Shown: positions 702 through 40,300 of the stretch, piece by piece | Numbering within the stretch: the first letter of the stretch is position 1 | Layout: each line of letters starts with the position of its first letter | The notes under the pieces: generated by a model | The model's database searches: none | Seen by the model: the letters and a program-made list of their open reading frames with translations, nothing else | What the model was told of the DNA's origin: nothing | Position numbers and translations under genes: made by a program | Assembly (NCBI GenBank): GCA_032622095.1 | Contig: CP136061.1 | Span: 127,298,754 to 127,362,753, forward strand | From: Siphonodentalium dalli | Taxonomy: Eukaryota > Mollusca > Scaphopoda > Gadilida > Siphonodentaliidae | Length of the DNA stretch: 64,000 nucleotides | Direction of reading: 5' to 3'

Positions 702-951
702 CCATTTCTATACTAAATACTCATTGACGAGCAGTTCCCTTGGGAAATGTTCAAATAATAAGTTCAACAAACATTTGTTGAACTTATTATCTGAACATTT
801 CCCACCAATGAATATGAATATATTCGGCTCTTCTATTATGTTTTTCTGTCTGTCGTCTGCTTTTATTACATGAACATTCTAGATGAATAATAGACCATTC
901 CAATGTATACTTTTATAACAGAATGGGAGAATCCATTTAGTATAGAAAGGG
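702..951. mobile_element. Family E TTAA element (piggyBac-type MITE)
   Basis: Flanked by TTAA on both sides. Ends are CCATTTCTATACTAAAT and ATTTAGTATAGAAAGGG, which are inverted. An internal palindrome (AGTTCAACAAACATTTGTTGAACT) sits in the left half, with the longer arms TTATTATCTGAACATTTCCC around it. Confidence 0.85.
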
Positions 952-1041
952 TTAAGTAACAATGCTATAAGTAAGAGTGGAATATCCAAACCAGTTCATA
1001 CCATTTCAAACAGAGTAAAAACAAAAATGTCAAACAAGATA

Positions 1042-1244
1042 TACAGTAATGCCCTAAATAATCGACTCCTTAACCACAGCAGAATTATGGGTAACTTTTC
1101 AGGATTTAGTCGGAAATATGGCTTGTTGCCATTCATCGGAAAGCTCTCAGTGAGTGGCAACAACCCATATTTCCGACTAAATCCTGAAAAGTTACCCATA
1201 ATTCTGCTGTGGTTAAGGAGTCGATTATTTAGGGCATTACTGTA
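1042..1244. mobile_element. Family A palindromic MITE, TA-flanked
   Basis: A near-perfect inverted repeat from TACAGTAATGCCC to GGGCATTACTGTA with arms of about 95 bp and a short loop (CTCTCAGTGAGTGG). The TA duplication and CAGT terminus point to the Tc1/mariner group. Because of the symmetry the same reading frame appears on both strands; it is not a gene. Confidence 0.92.
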
Positions 1245-1278
1245 TAACAGCACTAATTATCATTAATGAAATACTTAC

Positions 1279-7400: not shown

Positions 7401-10400
7401 AATCCCCATCCACCAGGAAGCCAACGCCTACAGGGCGGGTTCTCACAAACTCTTTTTGAAGGAGGTTTGTAGCCGGTACAAAGGTCTGTTTTGATGATTT
7501 CCTCACCACGGTAACACCAAAGTCTCCTATATTGGTAACCATCACCGCAGGTAACTGAGCACTGAAATTTGGAGTTAAGTGATGACATTTCTCAATAAGT
7601 CAGATAAGAAATTTGGACTTAAAAATCATTTTAGAAATGTTAGGTACAAGATTAAAACTCTATGTGAGAGCACATTAGAGTTTATATATTGAATGGTGTC
7701 AATTTTACTTGTAGAGGAAAGAATAGACAGAAGATTATATTTCCTAAGAAACATCCACTGCAAGTACAAGTCAGACCTCCCCCTCCCGGATGCAATTGAC
7801 AAACTTGCTCAGACACACGAATCATGAATGCTCCCCCTTTGTGTGGAACACCAATCTGCACTTATTGGGAATCATACCTGTTTCATCATTGCTGAACTGT
7901 GTATGAAAGCCTAATGTGCCACGCTCTTCCATCCCCCAAGCCCTGCCCCATATTTAATATGGTGAGTATGCCTACATCAATGAGATAATTAAAAGCATTA
8001 TTAAATTTGAACAAAATAAGTTACTTTTCTTCCTAATAGAGAATACATACCCCAGTCCACTTGTCCGCCCGCCATTCCGGACATGTGACATAGTCAAGGC
8101 ATGGTCTGCTGAGCGTGAGTTCTGTCTCATTGCAATTCTGTTGGTCGATTTCCAGCCCTTTATCATTGATACACTTGACATATCTTTTCTGTACACCTCC
8201 AGCACCACACGTCTTAGTGCACTGTGAAATGATTGAGATGGGATCATAATAGGAAAATTACCAAAACCAGAGTATAATGTGGTCAAATACCTCACCATTA
8301 ATGCGTTAAAGCCCTTCCAACTTAGCATGTGACAATCACAATCTATGTGAAACTGGCAATATAAGACTATATAAGGTGAGTGATTGTAACTAAGATATTT
8401 GCTCTGAGTTGGTAGTGATGTCGCCGACGAATCACATGATTCGCAAATGAATTCTCAAGTTATTTTAACATTTGCTTTAGACGTAAATTCAATTGCATCG
8501 ATGAAAAATTTCATGTGCCATACAACATCTGGAAAGACAATAGAAGTGTAACAAGAGCTAACATTCAAACAATCAAAGATCTTTCTACTGCAGTTTCTGA
8601 TGTACTTCAAGCTGTAATTGTCAGCACCTTGTATACATCTATTGATCACAAAAATTATGTTCCACATGATGTTTCATTGACGAAATCCACTAGATTATAT
8701 TGAATACAGATTTATGATAAAAAAAATCTCACCTCTGTCCAGTCGCTGTATTTCCACTGAGGTAGAATACACTGCCTGTAACACTCAGAAAATTCCTGTT
8801 TTGGCCCGCTTTCTCGACAATGTTCAGTCTCGACCCGAGTCTCTACCTTCGCACTTTGTCTGATACAGAGGGATTCTTGTCTGGCTCGTCCATATCCGCA
8901 AGTCACAGAACATTCCCCTACAGATACAACTTTCCACCTGAAATGAAGAAAAAAACAAATATATTATTGTTTTAACCAGATTTCAAATTACTGGTGGGAA
9001 ATTTGGAAACTTCCATATTTCGCAGAATACCAGATAACTCCCTGATAAAAAAAATTAAGTAGGAGGACGTAAGATATCTTATTCAGTTCCTATAAATTTA
9101 ATCTCAGTCAAAAACCAGTTTTTGCAAGATGCCTATTACTAGTAAGGCCGTGCTCAAAATAAGGAAAATAGGGTTTCAGCGATGTCCGTGCTTCAAAACT
9201 TCAAACCAACGAAAAAAATAGAAGGAGTGGAAAATTTTTTAAAATTCCAATGGCAATAGCTTCAGCAAGCAAAAAAAAAACACATCAACACCAAGAACAT
9301 CGATCCATGACATCAAACATTAAAACTACAGAAAGTGTGTCAGGTGCCCCAGTTTGGGTAAATATATAAATGTCAGTAACTCTGGTATTTATCAGGTGAT
9401 TAGAGAACTTTTTGCATATTTGGAACGAACCTCACATAAAAGACTTTACATTCTGTGTTAAGTAATAATTGGAGCAAAAACTCTGATGTATTATTTTTGC
9501 CTGATTAGTCTGGGTCAGCAAAATAAATTGTCCACATTTCAAACATTTTGTCATACCCCTTGGCATCCTTGTAGAGAAAATGTACTGTTTCAAATGCAGT
9601 TGGTGACAGCGTACCTGAGGGTGCAGTGGATGTTACAAGGTTCTGGTCTTTCTGACGGCCGGTCAGTGTCCTGATCAATACATCTCTGTTCTGATACAAT
9701 CTGGTTATCAAAGTCCCTCACACAAACCGGATGCCTTATCGATTGACCTGTGGTGATAAATGTATGTAATATAAAGATGATACAAAGTCCCTCACACAAA
9801 CCGGATGCCTTGTTGATTGACCTGTGGTGATAAATATATGTATAGCCAAGATGATACAAAGTCCCTCACACAAACCGGGTGCCTTATCGATTGACCTGTG
9901 GTGATATATGTATGTAATATTTGAATTCTTTATATTTTGGTTTTAGTGTCAATTTTTTACGATATCTCATATTTAGGTTTTTCAATTTGGCCAAAGTTTC
10001 TGAAAAATGGCAAAACAAATTCAGAAATGACAAAAAAATTGGCCAAACGAATTTTCTGCCAACCGTGAACACTGATACAAGATATGATGAGTTATGGCAA
10101 TTGGACTACTGATAAACTGATTCTACTTACCATTACACAGCTTGTTACATTTGGATAGCCGTCCATACTGGAAACTCCACTTATAGTTGTGTGATCTCCC
10201 AATGTTAATGGTATACTTGTACTCAATGTTAGGTGGCTGTAAACTTCCTACACTCAGAACCTGCAATATCAGTCATCGAGCCTTGAAATAGTGTGTCTGT
10301 CATCCACATAATGAGGTCCCCCAGAGGGTGAATTTAGTGATGCTATCCCACACAGCAGATTAGCCTCACCAAATTCACCCTCTAGGGACCTCATTCTGCT

Positions 10401-13400
10401 TAGGCCTCATCTTTTGGAAAGTATCTATAGTCTCAAATTAACATTGTTTTTAGTTACTTTTCCCTTCTGTTCAGTTTCTATATTCCCCAATTTTCAAAGA
10501 TAAAATACATAATAGAGGTGACTAATGGGTGAATATCACCTTCAACTGCAACTGGGAAACCTCAATCTGATCCTAGCTCTGCCATAGCAGTTGAGGCCTC
10601 CGCAGAATGAGGTTCCCAAAGGGTTAATTTGGTGATGCTAGCACTCTGCGCAGGATAGGGGCATTAATTTCACCCTCTGTGGTAGCATCACTTAATTCAC
10701 CATCTGGGGAACTCATTCTGCAAATGTCTGACACACAATACCTTGACCTTGGTTTCCACTTCCCAGAAAAAAAGCTTTTGTTTGGTTTAACTATATCGCT
10801 AATAACCAGTTTTCTAAGCTAGCCAAAGTGAAAAATTAGGTGTTTTCTTGAAACTCGATTAGAAAATGTATAAAACTAATATTAAATTCTTATATTTAGA
10901 CTTCATTGAAGGAAGGGAGATAACTCATAAATAATACTAACAAAGATAACGAAATCATAGATTAACTTGAATGAAATTCTTACCATGAGGGTAATATTTT
11001 CAGGCATTTGTCTTGCTTTGATTATCTCGACTTGTGTTTCAGATCCACTGTATTCTATTGGCTGATTATGGAATGTAACCTTCGTGCTATATGAAGATAG
11101 AATATAGTTGCCGTTCAGGATATAGTTTCCATCTAGGTCGGCGAGAGCTGAAAATATAAATAGTTTGATCACAATATCACCTTAAGTTATACAATGTTGT
11201 CTTCATTATATTCAAACGGCAGGTAAACTTCTGAGGAATGAATTATACAATTATACAATAGTGAAAGGAGAAATGTATATATAGACAGAACACAACACGC
11301 ATCTTAATCGAGAATCTCTTATCAAATGAGTTGAGGATGGAGCAAGGATATATTTCGCGATAGTGTAGCTCGATCGAAATGTAACAATGCGGCATCCACA
11401 ATGAGTTTGATTTTGATGCAAGTTGTGTTCTGTATTTATTCTACACCATTGTGTCAGATGATTCAACCCACAGCTGTCACCTTCATTGATACCATATAGC
11501 TACCTTAACTGCGATTTAAGTCTGACGAATAACAAGTAATCATCGGGGCGTCACCCGAAGCAGATCGTTGACGTAATATATGTCATATTTCTTGGCGACA
11601 ATGTCAACAAAAATAGTTCCGGCTTGTATTCCACTAGAGGTATACAATACTATGTATTCAATGGCCGGTATTCAGTTGAATATATGTGCCTCATGTTGAT
11701 GGGTGTAGAATAAATGACTTATTAAGATGCTCTATCTCGCCCTAGCAACGCTTCCAATAACAACATAAAAACAATTTCTATGAAACTCTTTCTGAAGACA
11801 TTATTACAGTATTGCCCTAATTAATCGACTCCTTAACCACAGCAGAGTTATGGGTAACTTTTCAGGATATAGTCGGAAATATTGCTTGTTGCCATATTTC
11901 CGACTAAATTCTGAAAAGTTACCCATAATCCTGCTGTGGTTAAAGAGTCGATTAATTAGGGCATTACTGTACATTATGTTTTCCAAAAACAGGGGAAACA
12001 CCTGTTGGTACACATATTTCACTTTAAAAATGTTTCAAAAGATTGATGTTCAAACAAAATTGGTGTAATGTTCCAAAAATAGTAACAATTCCTGTCCAAG
12101 TTCATAGAAAAATATAAGAAAAAATTTATCCAGTTGAATGATTAACTCACCAAGAAAGGTATAATCATCCTTGGTTCCTGTGTAACTAATCTGTTTTATT
12201 TCAATATTTGTTGCTCCTGCAGGAATGACTGCCACTTCATTATAACCTGTAATTGAGAAATTAATTTCAATTTCCTGTTACTCAGGCCCAGACACATTGA
12301 CCTGAAATCCAGATTGCAACATTTTTACTGGCATGTAATCTGTCTGGAAAAGTTTTAATTGATACAAAATAATTGGGCTATGTTTTTGTACAAACACAAG
12401 CAGAAGTGAGTTCGAAACAGATTTATTTCTTGGCTCAAAATAATTATTTTTTTACTGACTGTCAAAATGACAGGCACCAAATGGATGGTGTTTTAAAAAT
12501 GGTGTCTGTCAAATTTTTCAGATGTACTGACTTATTATTAGTCAATGATGCGCAAATTTTAGTGAGCGTCCTAGGAAAAACCCATGTTATTTTTTTGTTT
12601 CAAAAGTTCAAAAACTTTACGTCGATTAATAAATACACATGTAATTCAACATAATTATATTCACTATGAATTGATCTGAAATTAAAAAAAGAACTATTTT
12701 TTACTTTCAAAGTCCTATTTGGCCAGAAGTGGCTCCATGGGCAGATACAAATTGTTTAAAAAATTGCATTGGACAAAATGTCCGACAGATACAATAGTGC
12801 ACTGGACATTTTGCTATTTTTCGTCGGACAATGACCGTGACCGGCCACTTATTTTGAGCCTTGTTGGTAACTATATATGTTCAAACATGTGATGAATTGT
12901 GACTATAAGTGATACTTGATTGGGTGAATTTTGACAAAATAAATCACATGGAGATCATTTGGACACAGGCCCCTATATGCGCTTCAAACACATTTGGACA
13001 TAAATATTCACATAGGTTCATATTCCACTTATTTTATTCTGAAATAAAGCAAGCCCATAGTGGACTTATACCCATTATTCTGTTGGATGGTGCAGGCCAC
13101 AGTGAAAACACATATATAAAGTGAGTACATCTGGTCTGAAAATAGGTTCATATTGAACCTGAATATTCACATTTATTTGATTCTGAAATAGGCCTATAGT
13201 GAGCTTATTTTAATTTATGTGTTTTTTTTAATTAAATTTTTTTAAATCAAAATTTTGAAAAACTAACTCCATTATAACCTCCATCAGGGTACCCCAATTC
13301 ACCACACCAAATTTGATTGAAATCGGTCTAGTGTCCAAACAGACAGACAGATCATACTCTTTTATATATATAGATTCAGGGATAAAAATATAGAGCAGAG

Positions 13401-16339
13401 GGTGTAAATTAATACTGAAATATAAGCAATAACTGTTGTAACTTTTGAGATCATCCAGGGTTCATACACAGGCCTGAAAATATTTTGCTGGACGTTTGCA
13501 GAATGAGGTCCCCAGAAGATGAATACATCGGGCTAGCATCTCTAAATTCACCTTCTAGATGGCCTCATTCTGCTTAGGCCTCATCTTCTCTGGAAAGTGT
13601 CTTTAACATCAAATTAAAACTATTTTCAGATTCTTTGGAAAGTTCCTAAGAAAGTCTCTTTTTCATTTTTAGTTTAGATTCTCTATATCCCCAAATTGGC
13701 AGAAGACACAACGCATAATCAATTGGTGCCCATCACCATCTTCACTGTCTGGGAACTTAATTCTGGCTCAAGGTCTGCCATAGCACAGATGAGGCCATGC
13801 AGAATGAGGTCTTTTTCAAATCACGTGACGGTTGTGTTCTGGACAACTAAAATTAAATGATATGATCACTCGTCAAGGAGGAATACCAAATTATTAGAAT
13901 ATATTTATAGGTGATGGTTGTAATAGGGTTAAATCAAGTAATCACTCGTAAATGAGAGAAAACATTTCAACTAAGATATAATTATAGGTGATGATTGCAT
14001 TAGGGTCTATTGAGATTAAATAACGCAATCACTCGTCGATGAGAGATGACATGTAATTAGATTATATTTCTAGGTGAAAATGTTTTAGGGGTATTGAAAG
14101 TCCCTTAAGTTTAAATGGATAAAAGGGATAGAATATGCAAATAATCAGTAACCCTAAAACTTAAATCAAGTGATTACTCGTCAATTACTTCATACGTTAA
14201 AGTGACACAAAGTTTCATGTAGGCATCTCAGCCACTGCCAGCAAAAACATCGTATAGATCGTATACATCGGAAAGAATGTAAAAATGGATACATCCCTCT
14301 TGAAAGATTCTGTGGAAGGCGTGCGCCAAGCAGGAGGAAAATATGGATATGAGCACCGTATGCACGGGTGAAGACACACGTCATGGATTTAAAGCCATAA
14401 TAAAGGGAAAACAGTCAGTTGCACGGGCGTAACCCGACCAGGTGCGATAGTGAGATTATAACTGGTATACCGTATAACAAAATGAGTTAAATCAGTGAAC
14501 ATACAATTATCAGGTATTTAAAGTAACATATATATTGGACAAAATCAAGTAATCACTGGTCAATGAGAAATACCATATTGGGGTATATATGCGGGTAATG
14601 ACTGTGTTAGAGTTCAATCAAGTGATCACTCGTCAATGACTATGTTTATAGGTGATCATTGTTAGGGTTATAGAAATTAAATATTGTAATCACTCGTCAA
14701 TGAGAAATAAAAATTATTATAATTATCTCAGGTGGTGATTACATTAGGGAATATCAAGTGCATCATGTTTGAATTACCAACCTGGATGGGAATTATATAG
14801 ATATATATTATAAGCAGTTTGGATAAAAGTCAATCAAGGGATCAATAGTTAATGAGTTCACAAGATATGGTGCGGCTAAGTTCGACGTGGATATTATGCG
14901 AATGCAGTTACTCGTACCTGTTTAACTCTTTAACCCTCAATGACGTTACCCGGGACAGCCCTCAAATGTAACGTCAAGGTAGACAACAGGGCGTAATTAG
15001 CAGCGAATTTTTTTGCGCTCGCTTATTGATAATTTTATTAGACATGTTGTTACCGCGAATTTCTTGAACACCACCGAAAGTTACATTTCAATGCAAATTG
15101 TATCCGTTATTCTACAACTTATTACCAGCTAAATTTTCATTGTGAGAATCACAACGGAACTGGTCGGTCTAAATCATGCAGGAATGGATAAAATTTCATT
15201 TTTATTTATGCCAAACTTCCTCGGAAAAGTTGAGAAAGTCACCAGAAAAAGTTGAACTGGGGAAATCCTTGTGATGAAGGGAATACACATCCCATCTCCG
15301 ATTATAATTTTAACTTTTGTGGAGAAAACTGGACAAATCTAGCTATAATATCGAGTAAATCATAACATTTTATGACGTGATTGTTGGTTGCGTCATTTTC
15401 AGTTTGTCGCTTTCGCAAAACACGTTGTTTATTTATCTGGTACGATGGTATTACTCGTCTCTTAAATATGAATAATCCCTACGATTCCCAATATCAATAA
15501 AAAATAAAAATAAATCCAACTTCCTTATTTGGGTGAGGCTTGATTCTGCCATCACTGGATTGGTCCGGCTCTTCCATCAATTATACAGGCTCTTCCAATA
15601 ACCTCCCGATTGATCCACTCTTCCGGTTTGCAACACAACACACACACGTGGTTTTCACTCGACCGAAGTTGAATTAAGAATTGCAACGTTGGTTCAAAAG
15701 ATATAATTATTCAGAAAATGGCAACAAGAAATAGATCTTTGGTTTGTTCAGGCGGATTTGGAAACATTAGAAGACAATTTCAGTACTGATACCAGTTGGG
15801 TACCGGTATGTCATTGAAAATGGAATAATTATTATTGAAATGGATTATTCCATATTAAACTGCACTTAGCGATATAAACTTCCCGCTACTTGACCAGAAA
15901 TTGACAAGGTGTTGATCTGAACAGTTATGTCACAGTATTCATATTCAATAAAGCATAAAAAACTGAATATACACCGTTTATATAAACGAAAAACTTGCCA
16001 TGCAAACCAACACGTCAAATCACGTCATTGAGGAATAGGTAGCCACGTCAAATCACGTCATTGAGGGTTACGCTAGAAAACTATTTGAGTGTTAAAGAGT
16101 TATACATCTACAGTAATGCCCTAAATAATCGACTCCTTAACCACAGCATAATTATGGGTAATTTTTCAGGATTTAGTCGGAAATATGGCTTGTTGTGACT
16201 AAATCCTGAAAAATTACCCATAATTCTGCTGTGGTTAAGGAGTCGATTATTTAGAGCATTACTGTATCCTAAGATAAAATTCCATGACTTTGAGAGGTGA
16301 AGGAGTAGACCTCTAGGTCTATTCGACCATCCCAGGGTT

Positions 16340-16378
<39 letters not shown>

Positions 16379-19300
16379 ATCACTACTTCGCAGACCATGA
16401 CTTTTCCAAAACATACTTTTTTGTTATTTCGCATTAACCCACTTTGGGGGCCTTAGGTCCTTTTAATCAACAAGGGTAAAACAGTAAGACATACCATATT
16501 TGGTCTGTGCTTTAAACGTTTTGTAAATGGTCTTGCACTCCGATCCATCCCCACCACACACATCACACTTATCATATGTTATGTTAGTTCCCAGTCGATT
16601 ATCACAACCTGCTTTCTGCAAATAAAACAAAGAAAAGTACATAATAATAATCCATCAACTAAGACACGCCATAGTTATTATAACCATATCCCAGCTACCC
16701 CCCACGCCAATATGGCACAGTGACACCAATTTCTTTGGTCCATCCTCTGAGGAGGATACAATTCATACTGAAACGCATATGATTGGACATTAGAATTAAT
16801 CATGCCGACAAGACCATCGACATCCCGCCAAGGACTCTTTTAAACATGAGTGGTATGAAGCAGACACAGTACGAGTGACCTTGCTCAAGTGTCACAACTT
16901 GGAGCAAGATTTGAACAGTGTATCGCCTGATAAAAGCATATCGCTTAACTCAACCAAGACCCTGTTGTGTGAAACTCAATAGTCCGCGGGCAGGCTTCAA
17001 ACTCAACTTTATGTATTGACAGCAAAGACAAGTTGGTGCTCCATATTTGCAAGTTTGTGTTGACAATAGTCTGGTTGATTGATATTATACAATTATCGCA
17101 TTGTTTCAAGGTTGACACGAGGAATTGTCAACCCGAGGAAGTCAATATTCACCAAGGCCGTAGGCCGAGGTGAATATTGACTTCCAAGGGCTGACAATTC
17201 GTTGTGTCAACCAAGAAACAATGCGATAACTGTTTTATTATATGAAACGCACTTTGATTGGACAAGACGTTGTGATGTTGAACGTCGCTGGGAAAACCTT
17301 ATCTATTTTCAGGTCTGATAATAAGTTATGTTAAGGCCAAACAAAATTAGAATCCTGTTTCTCAAAGATCGCCGCCCCCTTAAAATATGGCCGCCGGTGC
17401 TTTTTTTCCCCATCCTAAAATAAAAATGTAAATAACACCCGCCGCTTGATATAATATCGCAAACAGGCGTCTCGCAAACCAGGCGATGTTGTTCTGCTGC
17501 TTTGTTCAAAGAGAGAGAACTCTACTTCTGATTCCTCCAGTACATTTGTTTGCACCGGTAAACTATTTATGCACCACTTCTCGTCAGCCAAAATGGCGGC
17601 GCTTATAAATATCTCGGCGTTTTCGGGTTACACAAATGTTATTCCATGGAAAATTATACAAGTATACAACACAGATACCATTTGTAAACTGTGTGAAGAT
17701 TTTATACACAATAGTGATACAAACGAGTTCAGCATTGACAGTAACCTCAGTGTCAGTTGGGGGAAAAAAACCCAAGGGAAATAATGACCATTCTGATTTC
17801 GATCTGGTGTCGCAGTAACTGGTCGGATATCAGGTGGCTGATATCCTTGGACGGTACTTCAAGATAAATATTAGACCTCCACCTAAATTGCTGGATGATG
17901 CTTCGGGTATACCGATATGCACAACAGAGAAGAGTGCATATGTGAAAACTACAGGTTGTTGATTAATGTTCAAAATTACAGTTTTTAAATAAAACAATGG
18001 TATTATAAAATAATTTTATATTATTTATTTCCAATAAATTTGGGTCAATGTAATGTAATAAAAAACCTGCCTGCTGGTAAAATTTTGTCATAAAAAGTAG
18101 ATGTTAAAACCTGCCTGCTGGCAAATTTTAGTCATAAAAACATTATATACAAACCTGCCTGCCTGCTGGGTTTGAAAAAAAAATCCTTTGAGAAACAGGA
18201 AATTAACTTTGTGTGGCCTAACCTCTGAAGTATCTGACGTCACTCAGAACTGTTATTAACCTGTTGTTTCATTAATGAGGTGAACATCGTTAGATATCTC
18301 AATTTTTTTCGTTACATTTTAACATAGGAATTGGGGAAAGAAACTTATGACCATATAAGCAGAAGTAATATCGCATTTTGGCTCCCAGCGGCATAAATAA
18401 ATATACAAGTGTTGACAGAATTTGGTCATTGCACATTAAAATACTGACCACAGGCTGCGAACTCAGACAGTATACCATGTTAATCCTTTCAATCAGTGAA
18501 GGTCAAGTTTTAACGTGGATGATCGATCCCCTGATTCTACATGGGGAAACCCAGGGTACGTCATCGAATAATCGCAAGAGATTCCTGGATGATGTTGGCA
18601 ATATTGTAATTTTTCATGTTTCAAAGGAATAATGTTATACTAATAAAAAGACTAATGTTATACTAATAAAAGAAATGGTTAATCTTGGTGATTCTTTTCT
18701 TTATATATAATATATATTTATATATATATATTTATCATATAATAAATATTTTATCATCACAGTGAATTGGTCTCGTTTTCCTGATCACGTCTATGTTGAG
18801 ATCTCGGATCAGACTTTATATGGAGACTCAGATCAGTTCGCTGTAGTGATAATATGTATATACATACCTGACACTTTCCAGCAACGCAGATATCGCTTGA
18901 TTCTGGGTGGCACTTTGTTCCATCGAGAACTTTGTTACTGAGCTGGTAATATGAGGAGCTTTGAGAAGCACGACAGAACAATTTACAGCGATCCTTCAAA
19001 TTAACTGAAAATTAAAAACTCCAGTTAAAAACTCCAATTAAAAACCTCAGTTGATTAAATAAGGAAGTTGTCAGTTTCCCAAACTCAAGATATGAATGCT
19101 GATGCAAACCTCAAGATATCAACGTTGACAGGGACCAGCCTAGAGGGAGACTTGGGAGACATCTTCTCCCTAAAATGAGTCACTTCTCCCTATTTTTCTT
19201 CTAGAGAGAAGTGACATCAATCTCAGATACTAGTATGCATATTTTAAGAATATTTACTGATTATATTACTGGTTTTATAAATGGGCTCTTTAATTGCAAT

Positions 19301-25300: not shown

Positions 25301-28300
25301 TTTGGGGGACAAATAAACATTGGAGATAAAACTCTAACAGGGAAAACGCAAATATCACCAAAACTTCATTGAAATCCCTTGAAATAGTAAATCGCTAAAC
25401 CAAATTTTATTCAGATCCAATAACCTATTGCTGAGATAGTCAGGCAGACGTACAACAACAGGTAAATAAAGATAACTCTAAAATGGAAAAAGCAAACAAC
25501 ATCATTTGCCCCTCTTTTGAAAGCACTTCCTATGGTGAACTTCCATTCCAAATTTCATTGAGATCAAATAAACCGTGGCTGATATTTTTTCTTAATATTT
25601 TATCCCTTTCATGGCAGGAGATGCGCTGGTGCAGCATTAAAGATCCTGTGCCAGTGCATTCTCTTATATATGTGAGCCTCGCATATATAAGAGAATGCAC
25701 TGGCTTACAAAGTCAAGGTAAATATTGTTAGGCCAATGTATTCCCTTATATATGTGAGGCTCCCTATGGGAGATTTGCATATATAAGATAATGCATTGGC
25801 ACAGGGTTTTCACAATCTTTCAGGAAGCAGTCGTCATAGAAGGGTTAAGAACCAAGTTTTTGGTCATAAACGTTTTCTCCGAGCTGAAAAGGTTTTGATA
25901 TTTTGGACAATTTGCTTGCGGTCAGCTTAATATGTTGACTTAATGACAGCAGTTAATTTGAAAGGTTTGGTCTTACACTAGTGTCTTACTCAAGCCTTGA
26001 AATAGTGTGTATGTCATTTGCAGAATGAGGTCCCTAGAGGGTGAATTTAGTGATGCTTCCCCGCATAGCGGGCTAGCATCACCAAATTCACCCTCTGGGA
26101 ACCTCATTCTGCTCAGGTGTAAGCAGAATGAGGTTCCCAGAGGGTGAATTTGGTGATGCTAGCCTGCTTTGCGGGGTAGCATCACTAAATTCACCCTCTG
26201 GGGACCTCATTCTGCAAATGACAGACACACTATTTCAAGGCTTGGTCTTACTCCAGATGGAACCCATGTAACATTGGCCTGGTCAGCATAATCATTTATT
26301 TTCGATGCTTTGATTCAGAAACAATACGCTTTTCCTAAATGGGTTAAAATTACATCTGAGAACAAATATCAACAAGAAAACATATTTGAATTTAAATTTC
26401 AGTTGTTATATTTGATTGTAGAAAAGAAACTAGAAAAGTAAAAAAGTTAATTGCAGAGATACAGAGACCATAATTGGTTACTTCATTTTTAGTATTGAAT
26501 CAACAAATGAAGTAAATAAAGAAAACTTAAAAGATGATATTCAAGACAGGAAAAATAAATTGCACTCAAATTTACATTTATGATCTAAGACAACATAAAT
26601 GCAGCACCTTTGTCAAATTTCAGGTAGAATTATGTTTCACTCAGTTTCAAATTTGTTGCAACCTGACATGCAAATTTAAAACATACATATATTTCCATAA
26701 TATGAGACTTTGCTGAAATGAATGAACGAATAGAAATCAAACTATTCTAACCCTGTCTTTATCAATGGATTCTCCCATCAGTTATAAAAGTATACATTGG
26801 AATAGTCTACTATTCATTTGGATGGGTGTTCAGAAAATATAAGCAGATGACAGATGAAAAGATAATGCAAGGAGGATTCCTATTCATTGGCAGGAAATGT
26901 TCAGATGATAATTTCGACAGATTGAAACTTAATGTTTAACTTAATGTTCACATATAAATCTTTATTGTATTCTCTTCTGTTTAAATTATATCTCCATTCT
27001 GACAAATAAACTATCTATCTATCTAACATTATATCCCTCTTGTTTTCCCCATGGCCTAAAGCATGGCCTGTGAATCAGGTTAATAATTATTTATCTCAGT
27101 TTTAACCATTCGAACCCTGGCTCCCCACAACGATCAACACCCTGAACCTGGGCTCACAGCGGTATTTTTACTTATTGCAGATAGTATTTAGGCAAGTGGT
27201 GTTGTATTTTGCACAGCAAAATCCTTTTCAATATATTAAATCCAAAAAGGGTTATAAACATTTTAAAACTTCACTGGATTTATTATACAAACTGCCAAGA
27301 AATGTTACGTAATGTCGCAATCCCAACATAAATACATGATGTTGTATGGGATTTAGCCAAAACAAAATCTGGGTGTTCACTAAATGCCCTACAAATAACT
27401 TTTCACTTATACCAGCTTAAAGACAAGATTCTGAGCATTGTTCTTGTGTAAATCTATATAGCATGTACCTTTGCAAAAAAAAGTTATGATTTAATGAACT
27501 CGAAGTTTGTATATTCTTGAATAAAACTCATGTGACATGAGTTTATATCTGACAATCATTACGGAAACTTATGTAAATAAGCGGGAATTTCATTGGGAGT
27601 TATAAATACTCCAAGAATACGTCACTAAAGTTTCTAGCCATAAATATAGTTTTTAGTTCACTTATGAACCATATAAAGCGATATGATCCAATGCGAAACG
27701 AGAGGTCACGAAAATCAATATGGTGGTGCCTGTAATTGCAGAAATTTGATAAAACGGAGACTGTATCTGGTTTTCAATCGACTGAGACTTCGTTGTGCCA
27801 ACCATAATCTCGATAATTTTTGGACAGCTAAAATAGTTGTAGTATGAATTGTATGAAACACTAAATTATTTTTCGTACCATTCAGTATTTATCGAAAAAA
27901 ATAAATAAAGTGCAGCATTGGGACCATGGTAGAAGGAGATTACAACATGGCCTGTTTTACGGCTAGTATATGTGCAATTACGTTCTGGCCGAATACTGTC
28001 CAGCCGGGTTCAAAGGGTTAAATTTGAGCAATGTGGCGATGAGTGAAAAATAGTACTGCTTGAAACATGAGTAAGGTACAGGGGTATGGATATCACCCAT
28101 GATTTACATATGCACAAGAGCAAACTTGAACATAAATATATCAAACTTCCCGCCATGCTCTGCGAAGATCATAGGAGAAATAATAGAATATAGAGAAAAT
28201 AGAATGAAAATCAGGAATGAATGTGGACACAACAGCTCACAAGAACACAAAAATATCATAAAAACTTAACCCTTTCATGACGTGAGCTGCGCTGGCGCAA

Positions 28301-31300
28301 CATTAAAGACCCTGTGCCAATGCATTCTCTTATATATGCGAGTCGACCATAGGTCGCCTCGCATATGTCAGAGAATGCATTGGCCTAACAATTTTTTCTT
28401 ACATTCTTTAACAATTTTTATCATTTTTTATAATTTTTTCTTACATTCTATAACAATTTTTATCATATTTTCTTATATTCTTTACCAATTTTATCATTTT
28501 TATTATTTTTTCTTACATTCTTTATCACTTTTTGTCGTTTTTTTTACATTCTTTAACAATTTTTATCATTTTTTTATCATTATTTCTTACATTCTTTTAA
28601 TGATTTTTTATCATTTTTTTTCCAGTTTTTCTTACATTCTTTAACAATTATATAAAACTGGCCGATGAGCCCGACATTGTCCGGGCTATTCAAAAACCAA
28701 ATTTCAAGTCGATAGCTATTCAAAAACCAAATTTCAAGTCGATAGCTCCACCCGTTTTCGAGATCTGGTCTGCGTATGCGCGAAGCTGGCGTCGCACGGG
28801 CTCGGCGACCCGATAAAATTCGTATCCGGGGCAAGATACATTCACATACAAAATTTCAAGTCGATAGCTCCACCCGTTTCCGAGATCTCGTCTGCACATG
28901 CGCGAAGCTGGCGTCGCACGGGCTCGGCGACCCGATAAAATTCGTATCCGGGGCAAGATACATTCACATAGCAAATTTCAAGTCGATAGCTCCAACCGTT
29001 TCCGAGATCTCGTCTGCGCATGCGCGAAGCGGGCGCCGCACGGGCTCGCCAATACGACAACGTCCACCGCCTGGTCAAACTACACACACGTACCAAGTTT
29101 CGTCCCGATCGGTCGAGAATCGTAGATTTGTATAAATGACAGACAGACAAACAAACATACATACAGACAGAGGTCTTCAAAATATATATGAGATAATATC
29201 AAATTTGTTAGGCCAATGCATTCTATTATAAATGAGAGGCGATATATATGGTGGACTCGCATATATAACAGAATGCATTGGCACAGGGTATTCGCAAAAA
29301 TTCAGGAAGCTCCCATCAATGAAAGGGTTAAATAAAGAAATAGTTAGTCAAATGATAATCAATAGACATATCACCTGGATTTTATCAAATTCATACCATG
29401 TAATGCATGAATGCAATTCTGTCAAAAATCCAGTTCTCAGTAATTCTCAGTAACTATACGTCTGTAGAATGTAGACAACGGTAGCGCTTTGGAGGCCCTA
29501 ATAAATTCTCAATTCTAATTCAAATACCACTTTTATATGTTTGATGTTGAATTGTGTAGGCAGGATAAACGTCGCCCAACAATAACAGAAGTGAAAATGC
29601 TGATGGGGATGTTGATAAATGAAAATAATGACAGTTCATCCAGTTTTCGAATAGAAATTTCATCGAGTTGCGGTTTTGTGCGAGACTTTTCTCATAACAA
29701 CTAAGCTCTATTTCTATTTATAACACTATAACTGGGTACTTTGTCTAACTGATGATATAAATAATAGAATTGCTTTGAAATATGCTCAATTTTGTTTTGA
29801 AATTTGGCAGTGTAGAAATGGACGTATTATGATAGGGAACCTTATTTTGGACCGAACCCAACATGTAAGTGATTACACAGTGTGAAACTGAAGGACATGA
29901 CTTATCATCATCAATAGGGCCATAAATATTGTGGGGATTATAGTTTCAAATCAGAAATTGAAGATAGAATAGTCGAGAAGGGCAAGTAACTCTATATTGA
30001 AAATATTCTTTCTAGTTAGAATATCCTCAGTATCTGTAGCCTTTCCACAATTATTTTGCTCAAAAGCTTGAGTGATCAATTCTGGATCTCGTCAATATAC
30101 TTAATTCAATGTATGAACTCTGAATGGATTTTCCCATTCAGTTCTACAAGTATAAATCTGCATGTGTATATGTTCGTCTATATGCTATCTGCTTATATTG
30201 CCTCCAAATAAATAATAGACCATTACAGTGCATACTTTTATAACTGAATTGGAGAATCCATTTAGTAAAGAAATTGTTAAAATGTTCACTGTCGCCACAT
30301 GGACCTACTTTCCCACACGAATCCTTGGAACAAATGAATGATATATAGAAAGTTAGAGAAGACTCTTATTTATAATACTCTTCTTGAAGTTCTCGATGTA
30401 TGAGTATACAGACTGATCGGTCCCACTCACATGCGGTCAGCATCTCACTATACTTACAGTAGGAGTTATCTACAAAATTATAAACTGAACAGGTGATTCC
30501 TATCTACAGATTATAACATATCTACATGACCAAGAGAAAATAAGACATTTATCATGTCTGATAGCACAAAGTATAGAGAAAATGGTGAGGTTGATGGTAT
30601 ATTATATTTGTATTATTTTCTTCCTTTACTCTCATGCTAAACCCGCACATTGTAGGAAAAAGTAATCGTAGCTCAAAAGAATATACCATGCATACAATTC
30701 TTCATTTCGTAAACAGAAATATTTGTACAAGAGCATTAGACATAATATAAGTGATGCCAAGTATATAGCTTGCAGAAAGATAAACTAGTTGAAAGTTGAA
30801 ATTAATAGATGAGCAGAATCAGTTTCAATGTCTAAGATTTGTTGAAATTATTAATAAAGTTAACAATGTTGGACCCCTATTAAATATATGAGGAACTAAA
30901 GAAAGTCAGATGGGACTGCTTTAAAGATATGAACATAGAAGAAGCATGGTAATTCTTCAAGTCAGAAATAGTATTAGCTATAAATCATTAATTTACAGGA
31001 TTTGTGTCTAAGAAACTTCATCGGATGTTTCTCCTTGATAAAGTAACCAACTGTACATGCAAAAACCTGGTGAATTTAATTAAAAGGAAGAAACGGTAAT
31101 TTATATTTAAAATAAAACCTATTTCTCATGGTATCCTGAAACCAACCATCATGTTGTGTGATAAAATGTACTCACACCAACAGGTCACTAAGGACAACAT
31201 CAATCAGAACATTTTCATATCCCTAAGTCATTGCAATAGATATGAAATTTGAACACAAGGATTTGTTTCTCATGTTGAAACATCTATAAACCATTAGAAC

Positions 31301-34300
31301 AAGGAAAGTTTCAAACAAGTATTAAAGAACGAAAGAAATAGTTCTTTTTCATCAGCGCTACAGATTGCCTATGTTTATTAGCATCCTTGGTATAATAAAT
31401 ATAATGCCATGATTGAATAAAGAAATGCAACACTTTAGAAAATGACACTTTTCCTATGCAAAGGGCATGTTTTGTGTGATGGACAAATAATATATGTAGC
31501 TTTATACTGTGTCTTAAACTGTTTATGTCCACTCAGGTGATTTGGCAACTAATGTGGTCAGCAAAGCCTCGCCCAATAGATGCTCAAATCCCTCTCACGA
31601 ACATAAACAGTTCCAGTGATGTCATTAGCTACATATTCTACATTTACCAGATATAGATAAATTGGAATAAACATACATAAGGAATCTTTGTCACACGAAC
31701 AAACACATACCATATCAGGACATGTTGTAGAGAGTAGTCCATATGTTTTCTTGCACTGTTCGTCGGCATTGTAAATGCTTCCGGGGTTGTAAAACATTCG
31801 TGCGCCATCGTTAGACTGTCGCTTAAAATATTTCTTGAAGTGAGGTTTGTCATTGAGGCACTCTGCTCTACCAGAACTGAAAAAATCAGCAAGATACAGT
31901 AATGCCCAATGTATATGACCCTTTAACCACAGCAGAATTATGGCTAAATTTTCAGGATATAGTCAGAAATATGGCTTATTGCCATTCATAAGAAAGCTCT
32001 CAGTGGTCACAAGAGCTCATCCAGTCTGCAAGCCTTGAAATAGTGTGTCAGTCATTTGCAAAATGAGGTCCCGAGAGGGAGAATTTAGTGAAGCTATCAT
32101 GCATGGCAGGCTAGCATCACCAAATTCAGCTTCAGCAAACCTCATTCTGCTGAGGCCTCGACCGCTATGGAAGATCTAGGATCAGATGGAAGTTCCCTAG
32201 TTGATGTTCACCCATTTAGTCATCTTGATTATGCATTTTATCTTCTGCAAATTAGGAGATATAGAAGAGAAAAGTAACTAAACACAATGTTAATTTGAGA
32301 CTATAGATACTTCAGAAGAAGAGGCATAATCAGAATGAGGTCCCCAGAGGGTGAATTTAGTTATGCTAGCCCGCTGAGGACTTCATTCTGCAAATGACAG
32401 CCACACTATTTCAAAGCTTGCCAGTCAGTTTTAAACACAGACTATATTTGAACAAGCTACAAGTTCCAGAATCTGATACATTTCAACACTCTTCCTATTG
32501 CTCCGAATATAAATAGTTTTCCCTGGTAGTATGATGTCAAAGCACACATTTAGCATAAAAAAAAAGTTTTACGATTGACAGATATATCCTTTCAGTTTTG
32601 TTTTCACGAATAACAAATTCGGTGCTAACTGTTGAAATTCTTAGAAATACTTATCTCCTTACCAGGTATGATTGGTCAATACTGGACTCTTCATAGACAC
32701 TTTTTGCGAAAACCCTGTGCCAATGCATTATCTGGGCCTGGCGACTCGCTTATATAACAGATTGCATTGTCATAACAAATGTACCTTGATCTTGTAAGCC
32801 AGTGCATTCTTTTATATATTTGAGGTTCCCCATGGGAGACTCGCATATATAAGAGAATGCACTGACACAGGGTCTTTAATGCTGCCCAAGCGCAGCTCCC
32901 ATCATGAAAGGGTTAATGAGTTCTATCATAATCTATATTTGTAAACAATGTGTGAAATTAATAATGTGACAAGGTGGGGAGGTTTATTGGAATCATGATT
33001 CAATAGTCTGTATCAGACTGGGTGAAGACTAGTTCACCCAGTCTCATTCAAAAGCCCTATTTTGAAGTCTGACACTAGCAGCCTGCTTCAAATTAAATTT
33101 CTATATTACAAGTTTCCCCATTCCTGTCCTTGTGTTTATTACATGCATCGCTTCCTAGAATCCGTGCATTAAAAATACAGGCTTAGAAGGTTTATTTAGG
33201 CACATAGAGGGCGTGTTTTGTCATGTGTGATGATGCTTTTATTTTATAGTTCTGGTTTCATGGTTGAGGCGAACGTCATGTACGTCATTTTATGTCAACG
33301 AGATGCATATGGAACATATGTTCCATATATGGTTCCATATGTATTTGTAAATATGGAACAGCAATAACACTGTACTTCTGGGAACAAGCGTGTAATAAAA
33401 AATCATATAGACAGAAATAGATCTCAACAATATAACAGCAACATGTATGAGATAGAATTCAAACATCCATAACACTAGGCTCCATGAATATGCTATAACT
33501 ACAGGTATCCGGCCATATAAACGTGCACTTATTTAAAGTGACTTAACCCTTCCATGATGGGAGCTGCACTGGTGCAGTAGGTAAATATTGTTAGGCCAAT
33601 GAATTCTCTTATATATGCGAGGCGCCCTATGGGCAACTCACAGATATAAGAAAATGAATTGGCAAAGGGTTTTTGCCAAAATTAATGAAACTCCAATCAT
33701 GAAAGGGTTAGCTATGGGTCTGGAGATCAAAATGAAAAAGACGATGTCTATAGATATTCATTAACTTTTCAAGACTTCAAATCACAAGGCAGCTTATTTC
33801 CAGGATATTTTCCAGGATATGGAACACTATTTTTGAATTCAATAACTTTTGCAGGATTCCAGACACACACGTACGAACCCTGCTTCATATCCTAGATGCA
33901 AATAATTGACAGAGATTGATGAACGCTTTGATATAATGAGGAATAATAGCGAAAACATTAATTCCTGTGTCAAAATACCAATATTCAGTATTCTACTCTT
34001 TGATTTGAAAGATTTGTGTTTATGCAGTAATGCACTAAACAATCGACTCCTTAACCACAGCAGAATTATGGGTAACTTTTCAGGATTTAGTTGGAAATAT
34101 GGCTTGTTGCCATTCATTGGAAAGCTCTCACTGAGAGCTTTCTGATGAATGGCAACAAGCCATATTTCCAACTAAATCCTGAAAAGTTACACATAAAGTC
34201 AATTATTTAGGGCATCACTGTATTTAACTTTCCAAGACATTTGTGACTTACTCCAAGAATTCTGTCATGTAATGTACACTGCAGTTTGACCAGGTCCAGG

Positions 34301-37300
34301 GACTTGTTTTCGAATCCAGAGTCGGAGCCATGACATTGTGAATGACTTCGCTTTTGTAACTTCCAAAATGTCTACATCTCTTTGCGTCATCATGGGGTAA
34401 ATTGAACCTGGAATCAAGAAAATTAAAACTCATACAATACTTCACACATATGCAGTAGAATGTGTCCACATGCTCGAGCATGCAAACAGCGCTAGGAACA
34501 AAGGGTAAAGGTCGAAAGACTTATATACAATTGGAAAACAGACAGCATGCCATAACAAAATCTCCTTAACTTTACTTGGGTTCGTTGACATTTTAAATAC
34601 CGGTAGTATCCTACAGAAATAAAAATTATCTTAATTTAATCATTTCTTTACTGAATAATCAGTGACTGGCGCGTTGAAGTTTGAATATCACTATCTAAAC
34701 CAGTCTATTAACTGAGTGATACATACACATGTCCAAGTTCATGTGCGATGGTGAAAGCGGCACTGATTCCGTTATCTTCAATCAGGGAGCAACTTCGAGC
34801 TGGATCACAGATTGTTCCAAGCTCAGCAAGACCTGAAAATAACAAGTATTAATGAGAAATGGGCACAATACACCAAAAAATTATTATCGATACGATATCC
34901 ATCTTATTATGGCGGTATGGGAATATCGATAATCAAAATTCATGGCCTTTTGGAAATGTTTACACCCAAGAAAATATGGACAAACCCCAAACCCCTAAGC
35001 TGGTGCCACTGTAAAAGCTCCTGGGTCTACACAGAAATTAAATCAGATGCTAATTTTTGCAGACTCCGTATAAAATTTGTCTGAGGTTAAAGGAGTACTG
35101 TACACTAAATACGGCCATTTATGGGCCATCTCCTATTGTTCTCAACAGAATATAAGCAAGAAATTAATTAGAGCCATGGATGAGTGCAAAAACCACTTTT
35201 TTGCTTTTAATATGAACAATGTAAACAACATGGTAATTATAATGAAAATGAGTTTATGGATCATTACCATGTTGTTTTATATCGTTCATAAAGTACTAAA
35301 ATGAATGTATTTTGCACTCTTCCATGGCTCAAATTCATTCATGTGTTGCATATATTCTGTAGAGTATAAAAGGAGAGGTCCCATAAATGGCTTGATGTAG
35401 TGTACAGTCTCCTCCTTTAACCCTTTACCCAACAAACCGGCCAAAACCGGCCAAATAAAGCTTCAACAGCCTAAAATATCTTCGGTCTGTCTCAATAGAA
35501 CCATACAAATATGGATATCATTGGAACCGGCTCCTTGACCACATTGTGATAGTTACAGTTATGCCCTGTGCCAATGCATTCTCTTATATATGCGAGTCGA
35601 CCATCGGTTATTATATAAGAGAATGCATTGGCCTAAAAAAAATCTATTTTTAACACTTTTTACCATTTTTTCTTACATTCTTTAACAATTTTATAATTTT
35701 TAATGTGTTAAGCCAATGCATTCTCTTATATATGCGAGGCGACCTATGGTCGACTCGCATATATAAGAGAATGCATTGGCACAGGGCCCTTCTGTTGGGT
35801 AAAGGGTTAATCAGGATTTCATTTCTTTTTAGCATTTTATTGTAAATATTTCCTGAGAATTGAGTATCAAGAGCCAAATAGTATTGGGGCAGACATCAAA
35901 AGTAGTGGGTAAATGTCGAAAGACAATTGGACAACAGACAGCATGCCATAGCAAAATCTCCTTAAGTTTACTTGAGTTCATTGACATTAAATTTTATAAC
36001 TACAGTAATGACCTAAGTAATCAACTCCTTAACCAGCAGAATTATGGGTAACTTTTCAGGATTTAGTTGGAAATATGGCTTGTTGCCATTCATCGGAAAG
36101 CTCTCGGGGAGAGCTTCCGATGAATGGCAACAAGCCATATTTGAAAAGTTACCCATAATTCTTCTGCGGTTAAGGAGTCGATTACTTAGGGCATTACTGT
36201 AGTATCATACAGAAAATATTAAAGAATTATCTTAATTAAACCATTTCTTTACTGAATACTCATTTACGAGTATTGTTCCCTTAGGAAATGTTCAGATTGT
36301 TGAACTTATTATCTGAACATTTCCCAGCAATAAATAGGACTACTTTTGCACTTTCTATTTATCTGTCAGCTGCTTATATTTCCTGAACATCTCTCCAAAT
36401 GAATAATAGACCAGTCCAATTTATACATTTATATCTGAGTGGGAGAACAGAGGGTTACTTTTTAAGAACTCAGCTGACCTAACAGAGTGGAGAAAACTTT
36501 GGGCAACCAATTGGGCATAAGTTCCTGAAAATAACATTTTTTTTCAGCGATAAAAGCAGAAAAGGACGAAATTTTGAAATTCAATCAGCATTTTTAAGCA
36601 CTCTCTTGAAACAATTTCATATTAAGCTACCAAAATTAACTATTCAGACTGCTCACATGGCAACATAACAGTTCTATTTCTGTTGAACCATACCAGGCCA
36701 CTTCTTCGCCTCCCCCTCCCTGGATGCAGTCACGAGAGGGAAATTCCCATCTTTCCTACATCTTGGCATCCCTGACATCTCTCATGCAATGACTCTTCAC
36801 AATTACAGAATTTACTGGCACCGGCAGATGCACAGCATTGTGTTTGTTACTTAAACAACCTAATTAATGACTAATTAATGACTAATTAATGAGTAATTCA
36901 CATTACACAATGCATGGAGATATATAAACATATATCGAGCATGTATAATATATATCCTTGCACCCTTCAATTATGTCTCAGCGGTCAGGTGTGAGGTTAT
37001 ATAGTAACGCTTCATACAACGCACATGTCAAATAAACTAATAGCAATCTGACAACTGATTGTTGGTGCTGTCAGTAAAGGTGCAACTCAAATCAGGCCTG
37101 GTACTCAGGTTAGTGCACCCATCAGCTGAGTCTGCAAAAAGAAGAGCATTTGGTCTATGCTGGAATCACTATAATATGAGACATGCTGTAGAATGCAAGA
37201 ATATTAAAGGCATATTGTGGGCTCATTTCAGTGTTTTAACCCTTTCTATACTAAAATGGATTCTCCCAGTCAGTTAAAAAGTGTACAAACAGAATGATTT

Positions 37301-40300
37301 ATTATTCATTTGGAGGGATGTTAAGGTTATAAAAGCAGATGACAGATACATAAAAGTGCAGAAGAAGCCCTATTTATTGAGGAAAATGTTTAGATAATAA
37401 GACAAGTTCAACAAACATATTATCTGAATATTTCCTATGGGATAACTACTCATCAATGATGCGTTAGTACAGGAAGCGTTAAACTGACAGTTCAGTACTA
37501 ACAGTTATTTTCATTTTATAGCGAAAGCATCAAGATGTCTATGAATCAACAGTCACACAGGCACCATCAGCAAGTGATCAACAACCTACTAGGATCTATC
37601 AGTATGCAAAAACATCGGTCAAGAATGCGAAAGCATTGAAGATAGTTAGCAAAGTTCATAAATGTCTTATATCATTCCAATTTTTAGAAGATCAACCCCG
37701 ACTACAAGCTGCCAATGCAACACGCTTCAAAGAAATTTTTAATCATCTATTTATTTTGTTGACATGACATAATCAATGATGACAAAGATTAACACCATTG
37801 GATTCCCTTCCAATAATTATAGGATTGGTTAGATATTAGGCTGACCACTGAACTAAGGTGCCTACAAATGAATGAATGGGAATCATATTATAGCTTGATT
37901 TGTTGAGGGTTAAAACAGCCAAAGAGAAGTCCTTGGTGTCCAGCCTCCTTACCCAATCAAGCCACAGTGATTTGTTGCAGGGGTTCACGAAGGACACATC
38001 TCAAAGTTCAAAATCTTCAGGAAATGACAGGTGTTGGATTACGGTTGTCCACATGAATAAATTTTAATTTTGTTTGTTCAAACTATCACTTTACCAATAA
38101 GAATACTCAACAAAGCATAAAACAGGGGTGCCATACCATCACATGTTGTCAGAGCCCTGCTGGCCAATAACAAAATAACACAGAGGGAAAGGAAAGTCAG
38201 ACTTCTATTTTATGAACAGAATATGAAATTAGTCAATAGAAAAATTGACCACCGCTTAGTTGTAATGACAGATCAAATGATTTTTCAATGGTGTAAGTGA
38301 TGCATGAGAATTGGCCACATGGATCGGACAATAGATGATGAGCTTGGCGTTGTAGTAAGCTTCCTACAGATTGTTTGGAGTCCGGCGCATATGGCTATGA
38401 ATAAATTTTGTCTCAAGTACATCCATTATCTACATGTACCTCCTAGCCAAATAATGGTGACTGATATCTTAAATGAATATTGTTTTCTATGAAAATTTGT
38501 GCCCGAATATCGGCTGGGTGTTTTGTTGACAGAATGGTCCTTTTTGTTAGCAAACGTTGACTACACCATGTGGTCATCAACTAAGGTTGTAAACTTAATA
38601 GTTGGTCAACTAATTTAATAACTAGGATTATTTCCCCTGCTGATAACACACCTGTCATTAGAAATCAATTTTCTTAGGATTGATTAGTGATCTTCATAAC
38701 AGGTTTCACTTTAATTCAAATTCTAGCAGGGACATGTCGAGAGGGCGACGTGGGTGAAAAAGTCGCCCTAGCGCCATCCACTTAGCCTTATTTTTGCAGT
38801 TGGGATACGTGTATAAAGTCGCCCTGAAAATTCCAAAGTTGCTGAAGAAAATCGGTAAAATGCCCCAAATAATTCATGATAATTTATTGGGTTTATAACG
38901 GCCCTAAAGAAATTCCCACTTTGCCTTATTTTTGTGGCAGGGCAAAGTCACTTCACCTTGCAAATCTGGTCTAGACTGGTTCCTGAATTCTATTATATCA
39001 GTATTGACTTCTGATCAAAACACAAAAACTCTTTTTGGCAAATCTTCCATGGTTTGTATATTAAAATGAAACAGGGCTATAATATTAAAATATACAACTA
39101 CAGTAATGTTCTAAATAATCGACTCCTTAACCACAGCAGAATTATGGGTAATTTTTCAGGATTTAGTCGGAAATATGGCTTGTTGCCATTCATCGGAAAG
39201 CTCTCACCACTGTATCTTCTACCAGGTATTACTGCAAAAAACCACTAAACAGTTTCTTGCTCCAATGGCATTTTTCTAAACAATACAAGTAATGGTAGAC
39301 AGGGTAGAATTCATCCCAACTAAAACTTTTGGACAACGAAATTATTGGATAAATTATGTGATGTATCAGTCTCTATAATCAATGTCTGTAAACAAAGTTA
39401 TCATGAACATGCAGCTAGATTACCTAGAGTGTCACATTTCTGATCGGATCTGCATATGTCTTGTCTGAAATTGAAAAAAAAAGAAAAAAATTCAGCACAA
39501 CAGAATATATAAAAGTATTTAATTCAGTGTTTTTATAAATATAATTAATCAAAAGTTCTGGAAAGAAGCCATCAACAATAGTTTTATTAAGCGCATCCAC
39601 ATTTATCAGTAAATAACTTCTGGTAACAAATCAGAAGAGTTTATCAACTGAATGTTAATTGGTCAATATATATCTGCTTGACCAAAGCATGAGGCCTGTG
39701 AATAGCGGTATTTCACACATATACAGTAATGCTCTAAATGTTCGACCCCTTAACCACAGCAGAATTATGGGTAACTTTTCAGGATTTAGTCGGAAATATG
39801 GCTTGTTGCCATTCATCGGAAAGCTCTCCCATGCTGTGGTTAAGGGGTCGATTATTTAGAGCATTACTGTAGTTTATAAGGCTGCATATCATAATAAACC
39901 TCCCTACCCTCTGTGACATTCAGTTCAGTCTGCCTTTCATTGAAACATTTCCATAGAGGCATTGTTAGAGCAGCTCGCAAAACCACTGATTTTCTAATAG
40001 ATATGGTGCCAATTCTGCTCATTAGCATGCCATAATACAGTCAATTATCTACATAGAAAGGATACGAACTAGTCTATAAGAATTGCCTATTCAGCAAAAT
40101 ATGGATTCCACAAATTGGTAAGAACTGAATTTTAAAACAGACCTTACTTGATTAGACTTATTGAAGAAAGCTTAATCAACAGAGTGTGAGACAGAGGGTG
40201 AATCTCTATTGGTTGGTGTTTTCACTCTGGGGAAATTAAGAATGCATATCTGCCACAAACTGATTATGGTGATTTTCACTCATAATTCTCCTGGTGGAGT

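Follow-up and report, generated by a model that had tools for sequence, protein, structure and literature searches.

In the 64,000-nt stretch of Siphonodentalium dalli DNA analysed here (the window), an ADAMTS-like gene on the minus strand carries three successive copies of an acceptor site together with the start of the exon that follows it, and the explanation that we prefer, to which a probability of roughly two in three may be attached, is that a tandem duplication across an intron-exon boundary has been tolerated, with some unproductive splicing as a result. In the course of events that we infer from the sequence (the order of the duplications, the acceptor used, decay and neutrality alike), a local tandem duplication of 64 nt across the boundary would later have been widened to three copies; in productive mRNA the donor at 10131 would be spliced to the acceptor next to the exon, at 9747, some transcripts would probably take one of the two extra acceptors and run out of frame, these would be removed by nonsense-mediated decay, and the array would persist either as a near-neutral variant or as a mild reducer of output. 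The copies themselves, the reading frames, the stop codons and the domain type of the gene are directly observed.

Nine modelled exons, running from 11147 to 1279 on the minus strand, together give a frame of 527 amino acids without a stop; their boundaries were set by eye. Pfam scans of the minus strand over positions 1-49598 found ADAMTS-type TSP1 repeats and a spacer domain (together with cysteine-rich-domain matches that fell below the curated cut-offs), and within residues 1-368 of the joined model the spacer domain (ADAMTS_spacer1, E 6e-10) is followed by ADAMTS-type TSP1 repeats (TSP1_ADAMTS, E 3.4e-39 over five stretches). The exon at 10984-11147 belongs to the spacer domain; that at 10131-10260, with the donor ATG/GTAAGT (the slash marking the boundary), holds the end of the spacer domain and the start of a TSP1 repeat; and the 133-nt exon at 9615-9747, identified by in-frame joining and its TSP1_ADAMTS match, starts at the exon-adjacent acceptor, supplies the main part of a TSP1 repeat and ends in the donor CAG/GTACGC. 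The repeat that spans the junction between 10131 and 9747 matches TSP1_ADAMTS with E 1.2e-4 and 22.7 bits, just under the curated cut-off of 23.8. Taken together, the frame model and the Pfam matches bear out the gene type and the exon (ADAMTS TSP1) proposed in the first-pass annotation of this DNA. Among structures in the PDB, the 61-residue repeat on its own found no match up to E 10, and a 321-residue stretch of the model found four up to E 0.01, the best of them (5.1e-4) being a thrombospondin type-1 domain protein and none of the four an ADAMTS structure. We call the gene ADAMTS-like because a Pfam scan of the minus strand over 29700-39698, where the metalloprotease domain would lie, gave no match; a peptide at about 34.4 kb looks, by eye, like part of the catalytic domain. 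As regards intron positions, the last five of the eight modelled introns (8732-8222, 8050-7562, 7399-5947, 5709-3084 and 2915-1492, all on the minus strand) are in phase 0 and lie directly before the first cysteine of a repeat (W-x-x/C), unlike the intron with the triplicated acceptor, which is in phase 1 and lies some codons later in its TSP1 repeat.

Tandem Repeats Finder places the array at 9709-9920, with a period of 74 and 2.9 copies. A 44-base pattern for the acceptor and exon start, built from the three copies with two ambiguous bases, one free base and up to 3 mismatches allowed, was matched on the minus strand of the whole window at 9709-9752, 9783-9826 and 9857-9900, and had 0 matches in 100 shuffles. 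The earlier claim of three tandem copies of a 74-nt unit is confirmed by both methods, and its location was right, although the array is slightly longer than the 9711-9915 originally given. Each period consists of a 64-nt core, extending from -25 to +39 about AG/GT (25 nt of intron end and 39 nt of exon start), and then a junction of 10 nt. Pattern match and copy comparison put copy A, adjacent to the exon, at 9709-9772, copy B, in the middle, at 9783-9846, and copy C, the far one, at 9857-9920, all on the minus strand, and their positions leave the junctions, which lie outside the cores, at 9773-9782 (between B and A) and 9847-9856 (between C and B). The three AGs immediately precede 9747, 9821 and 9895 respectively. 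What is repeated, then, is a head-to-tail series of units each holding an acceptor and an exon start, as a tandem duplication of an intron-exon boundary would give.

The copies are similar rather than identical, with 7 differences in 64 sites between A and B, 9 between B and C and 2 between A and C. Copy B deviates at -26 to -22, a cluster that could be a single small rearrangement, and at -15, while copy C deviates at -12; the 18 nt from -11 to +7 are identical in all three, and an unchanged stretch of 22 nt (+18 to +39), longer still, falls in the exon part. The three AGs had been described as sharing the same pyrimidine context, which is true of -11 to +7 but not farther up, where B and C differ, and one of the two readings offered had the mutation as recent, which is unproven, since 2 to 9 of the 64 sites already distinguish any two copies. 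C and A are alike at their left edges, and A is the only copy after which the exon continues; this is as would be expected if a boundary duplication were followed by the addition of one unit, for instance by unequal exchange. One 8-mer, TTGTATCA, runs from the end of each extra core into its junction and recurs 12 nt farther down the exon, but as it occurs 15 times in the window (both strands together), with 2 of these occurrences in the array, the case for it as the source of the 10-nt junction is weak. An exact 29-base pattern had 0 matches in viral_contigs and genome_contigs, two collections with sources other than animal genomes, and within the window there was no Rfam match at gathering score and no tRNA or tmRNA.

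From acceptor A the reading frame continues and enters the next exon (8733-8937) in the correct phase, and in the frame model A is the only one of the three acceptors to give the 527-residue frame. Use of acceptor B would add 74 nt and lead to a TAA after 125 residues, and use of acceptor C would add 148 nt and lead to a TGA after 131 residues (both counted from the start of the nine-exon model); these are the stop codons that had been assigned to the middle and far acceptors, and in the frame model the assignment is correct. A premature stop followed by later introns is the usual condition for decay. From the two stops to the end of the enlarged exon it is 121 nt (B) and 177 nt (C), and six modelled introns follow, so that the next junction is farther off than the roughly 50 nt required in splicing coupled to decay; since both are upstream of six later introns, the predicted products of B and C should both be decay targets.

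By the strength of the sites, the three acceptors are hard to separate. A position matrix made from 11 sister acceptors, with sites placed by eye and three of them (CR2, CR3a and CR3b) lying outside the nine-exon model with their frame unchecked, gave scores of 1.5 for A, 5.2 for B and -0.7 for C, as against -3.1 to 9.2 for the sister acceptors themselves, each left out in turn. Ten of the 11 sisters score above A, seven above B and ten above C, and among the 3332 minus-strand AGs the proportions scoring as high as A, B and C are 16%, 5% and 27% respectively. The pyrimidine tract is poor in every case, with 10 (A), 10 (B) and 9 (C) pyrimidines per 17. Each of the acceptors looks weak, and on a matrix this small none is set clearly apart. 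The AG-free zones measure 43 nt for A, 43 nt for B and 32 nt for C; under the scanning idea (PMC1431707), such separate zones would let every acceptor function with its own branch site. RNA folding of 10260-9615 gave mean unpaired probabilities at -25 to +5 of 0.56 (A), 0.49 (B) and 0.64 (C), without a clear winner. If A is nonetheless taken as the source of working mRNA, the ground for it is that the modelled frame is otherwise intact, not the strength of the site.

The strongest of the alternatives is a loss-of-output allele: most splicing would go to B and C, a haplotype carrying the array would make little protein, and it would segregate because it is recessive or the gene is redundant. 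Acceptors of similar strength would indeed be in competition, B outscores A on the matrix, and both extra acceptors lead to stops. Moreover, in a library of human splice-site contexts with tandem acceptors 2-59 nt apart, the order of the sites was, as far as the available text of PMC6783452 goes, not decisive, the stronger site being the one to dominate; given this lack of an order preference, heavy use of B or C with a strong loss of output is quite possible. Set against this are the divergence of the copies (2-9 of 64 sites), by which the array may have existed too long to be a harmful allele, and the intactness of the remaining modelled frame over nine exons. On balance we regard such an allele as unlikely.

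A second alternative, which had been put forward in the first-pass annotation as a built-in source of unproductive transcripts, is that choice of B or C is regulated and yields decay-prone transcripts that tune expression. The retention of AG and of the unchanged stretch from -11 to +7 at both extra acceptors, each of which gives a stop, is what lends the idea some appeal. However, an invariant run of 18 nt at the acceptor arises by chance in 18% of 50,000 trials if 9 variable sites are counted and in 42% if the cluster is counted as one, and the 22 nt from +18 to +39, which are unchanged over a greater length, are in the exon part, away from the splice site; with three copies the invariant-run test has little power, and within that limit there was no sign of selection on the acceptor core above chance (P 0.18-0.42).

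Nor is the position of the array surprising. The window holds six merged arrays of period at least 40 nt (overlapping rows having been merged), and when these were placed at random in 20,000 trials, ignoring that some positions cannot carry arrays, one touched a mapped acceptor (n=12) in 22% and a mapped boundary in 34%, the latter counted on 21 mapped boundaries only, to which further exons would add and so raise the chance expectation. With arrays of period at least 20 nt the figures were 27% for acceptors and 39% for boundaries (this set left out one period-30 row, 50092-50150, which does not affect the set of at least 40 nt), and a variant in which the three arrays below 25000 were confined to 1-25000 gave 37%. 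At chance rates of 22-39% an array on a splice site is no surprise in this window. With the invariant block no longer than chance and the placement unremarkable, the built-in source shows no positive sign and we think it quite improbable; the other possibility originally offered, a mutation tolerated by choice of the proximal site, fits better, although the matrix shows no preference for A.

A more elaborate reading is that the array is an intermediate in intron gain, its CAG/GTCAAT boundaries making 74-nt stretches that begin with GT and end with AG, so that either a second splice from the re-formed G/GTCAAT (through a zero-length exon) or prior removal of a 74-nt interval would restore the frame. 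If this were true, every route would end in one and the same normal mRNA, and having three copies would do no harm. In its favour, no bases would be retained, which keeps the frame; the best donor-like GT in each copy is the AG/GT boundary itself, scoring 5.3, a value reached by 6.2% of the minus-strand GTs of the window (donor and branch-site weights being taken from background knowledge); and the potato RdRp gene owes an intron to a duplication that crossed an intron-exon boundary (PMC4974935). As donors, though, these sites score low: 5.3 is below all nine model donors (6.6-11.4), splicing to C would re-form a donor of score 2.3, and of the five GTs that B and C each have in their 74 nt, the other in-frame option (24 nt retained) scores -0.4. 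A C at +3 is rare in donors. A two-step, frame-repairing route can thus be drawn on paper but would not be favoured, and the intermediate seems very unlikely. The array could all the same be raw material for new introns by tandem duplication. Work in Drosophila proposes that new introns which are weakly spliced are protected from selection by decay (PMC2809761), and that tandem duplications of coding sequence are the origin of some of them (PMC2891723).

That one or both extra copies are an assembly artefact is just as improbable, for although short tandem arrays are in general prone to miscounting, these three copies are mutually distinct (2-9 differences in 64) and a 212-nt array fits, on general knowledge, within one read of current technologies. 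Two further candidates were rejected: mutually exclusive exons, as copies B and C stop after 39 nt of exon and have neither its remainder nor its donor, and a plus-strand gene, as there are stops in all three plus-strand frames over the array.

Some other features of the window may be recorded here. Palindromic repeats that start with GCAGAATGAG and end in or near CCTCATTCTGC, perhaps small inverted-repeat transposons, occur at about 10600-10720 and 10300-10400 and also at 26020-26215; two are in the intron before the 10260 exon, and one pair is in tandem. A repeated element is present at 946-1263 (+), 11796-12065 (+), 16111-16452 (-) and 33842-34171 (-), with variants of a 22-letter peptide in all four translations and of a 15-letter peptide too in the first three. 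An uninterrupted run of 36 C lies on the plus strand at 16341-16376, downstream of a minus-strand exon starting at 16615, and a 122-nt unit is repeated in 2.7 copies with 93% match at 28718-29048, adjoining a T-rich array of overlapping periods at 28391-28653.

The interest of the triplicated boundary is that it pits three very similar acceptors against one another in nature, and that whichever is used would be marked by its own product length and, for the two extra ones, its own stop codon. With RNA, the array would test whether the exon-adjacent acceptor wins, whether mis-splicing is concealed by decay, letting such duplications survive, and whether new introns can arise by way of boundary duplications; as one isolated case it carries modest weight.

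Several known systems invite comparison. Tandem alternative 3' splice sites, NAGNAG sites included, likewise place at least two acceptor signals downstream of one donor, but in the present array the spacing is 74 and 148 nt (as against the 2-59 nt given for the human library in the available text of PMC6783452), the whole acceptor is copied, and both extra products are frameshifted. In the AGGT duplication model of intron gain (Rogers 1989, tested in ATP2A2 by Hellsten 2011, both as cited in the available part of PMC4974935), the repeated unit similarly holds AGGT, and the intervals similarly start with GT and end with AG; here, however, the AGGT is an existing intron-exon boundary and not internal to an exon, and the donor side is weak. 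Among the open-licence papers listed on intron gain by duplication, duplicated or tandem acceptors, recursive splicing and boundary duplications, a triplicated acceptor is not described in the titles or the opening parts of the abstracts, and the closest printed case found is the intron gain in potato RdRp. There too (PMC4974935) the copied stretch runs from the last part of an intron into the beginning of the exon that follows, the acceptor being duplicated with it, and the copies differ by point changes; it has two copies, a cryptic exonic GTAAG was activated as donor, and the new intron was proven by RNA reads, whereas the array described here, at the level of DNA, has three copies and no strong donor. 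The mutation is of a familiar kind, to which this array adds a further example.
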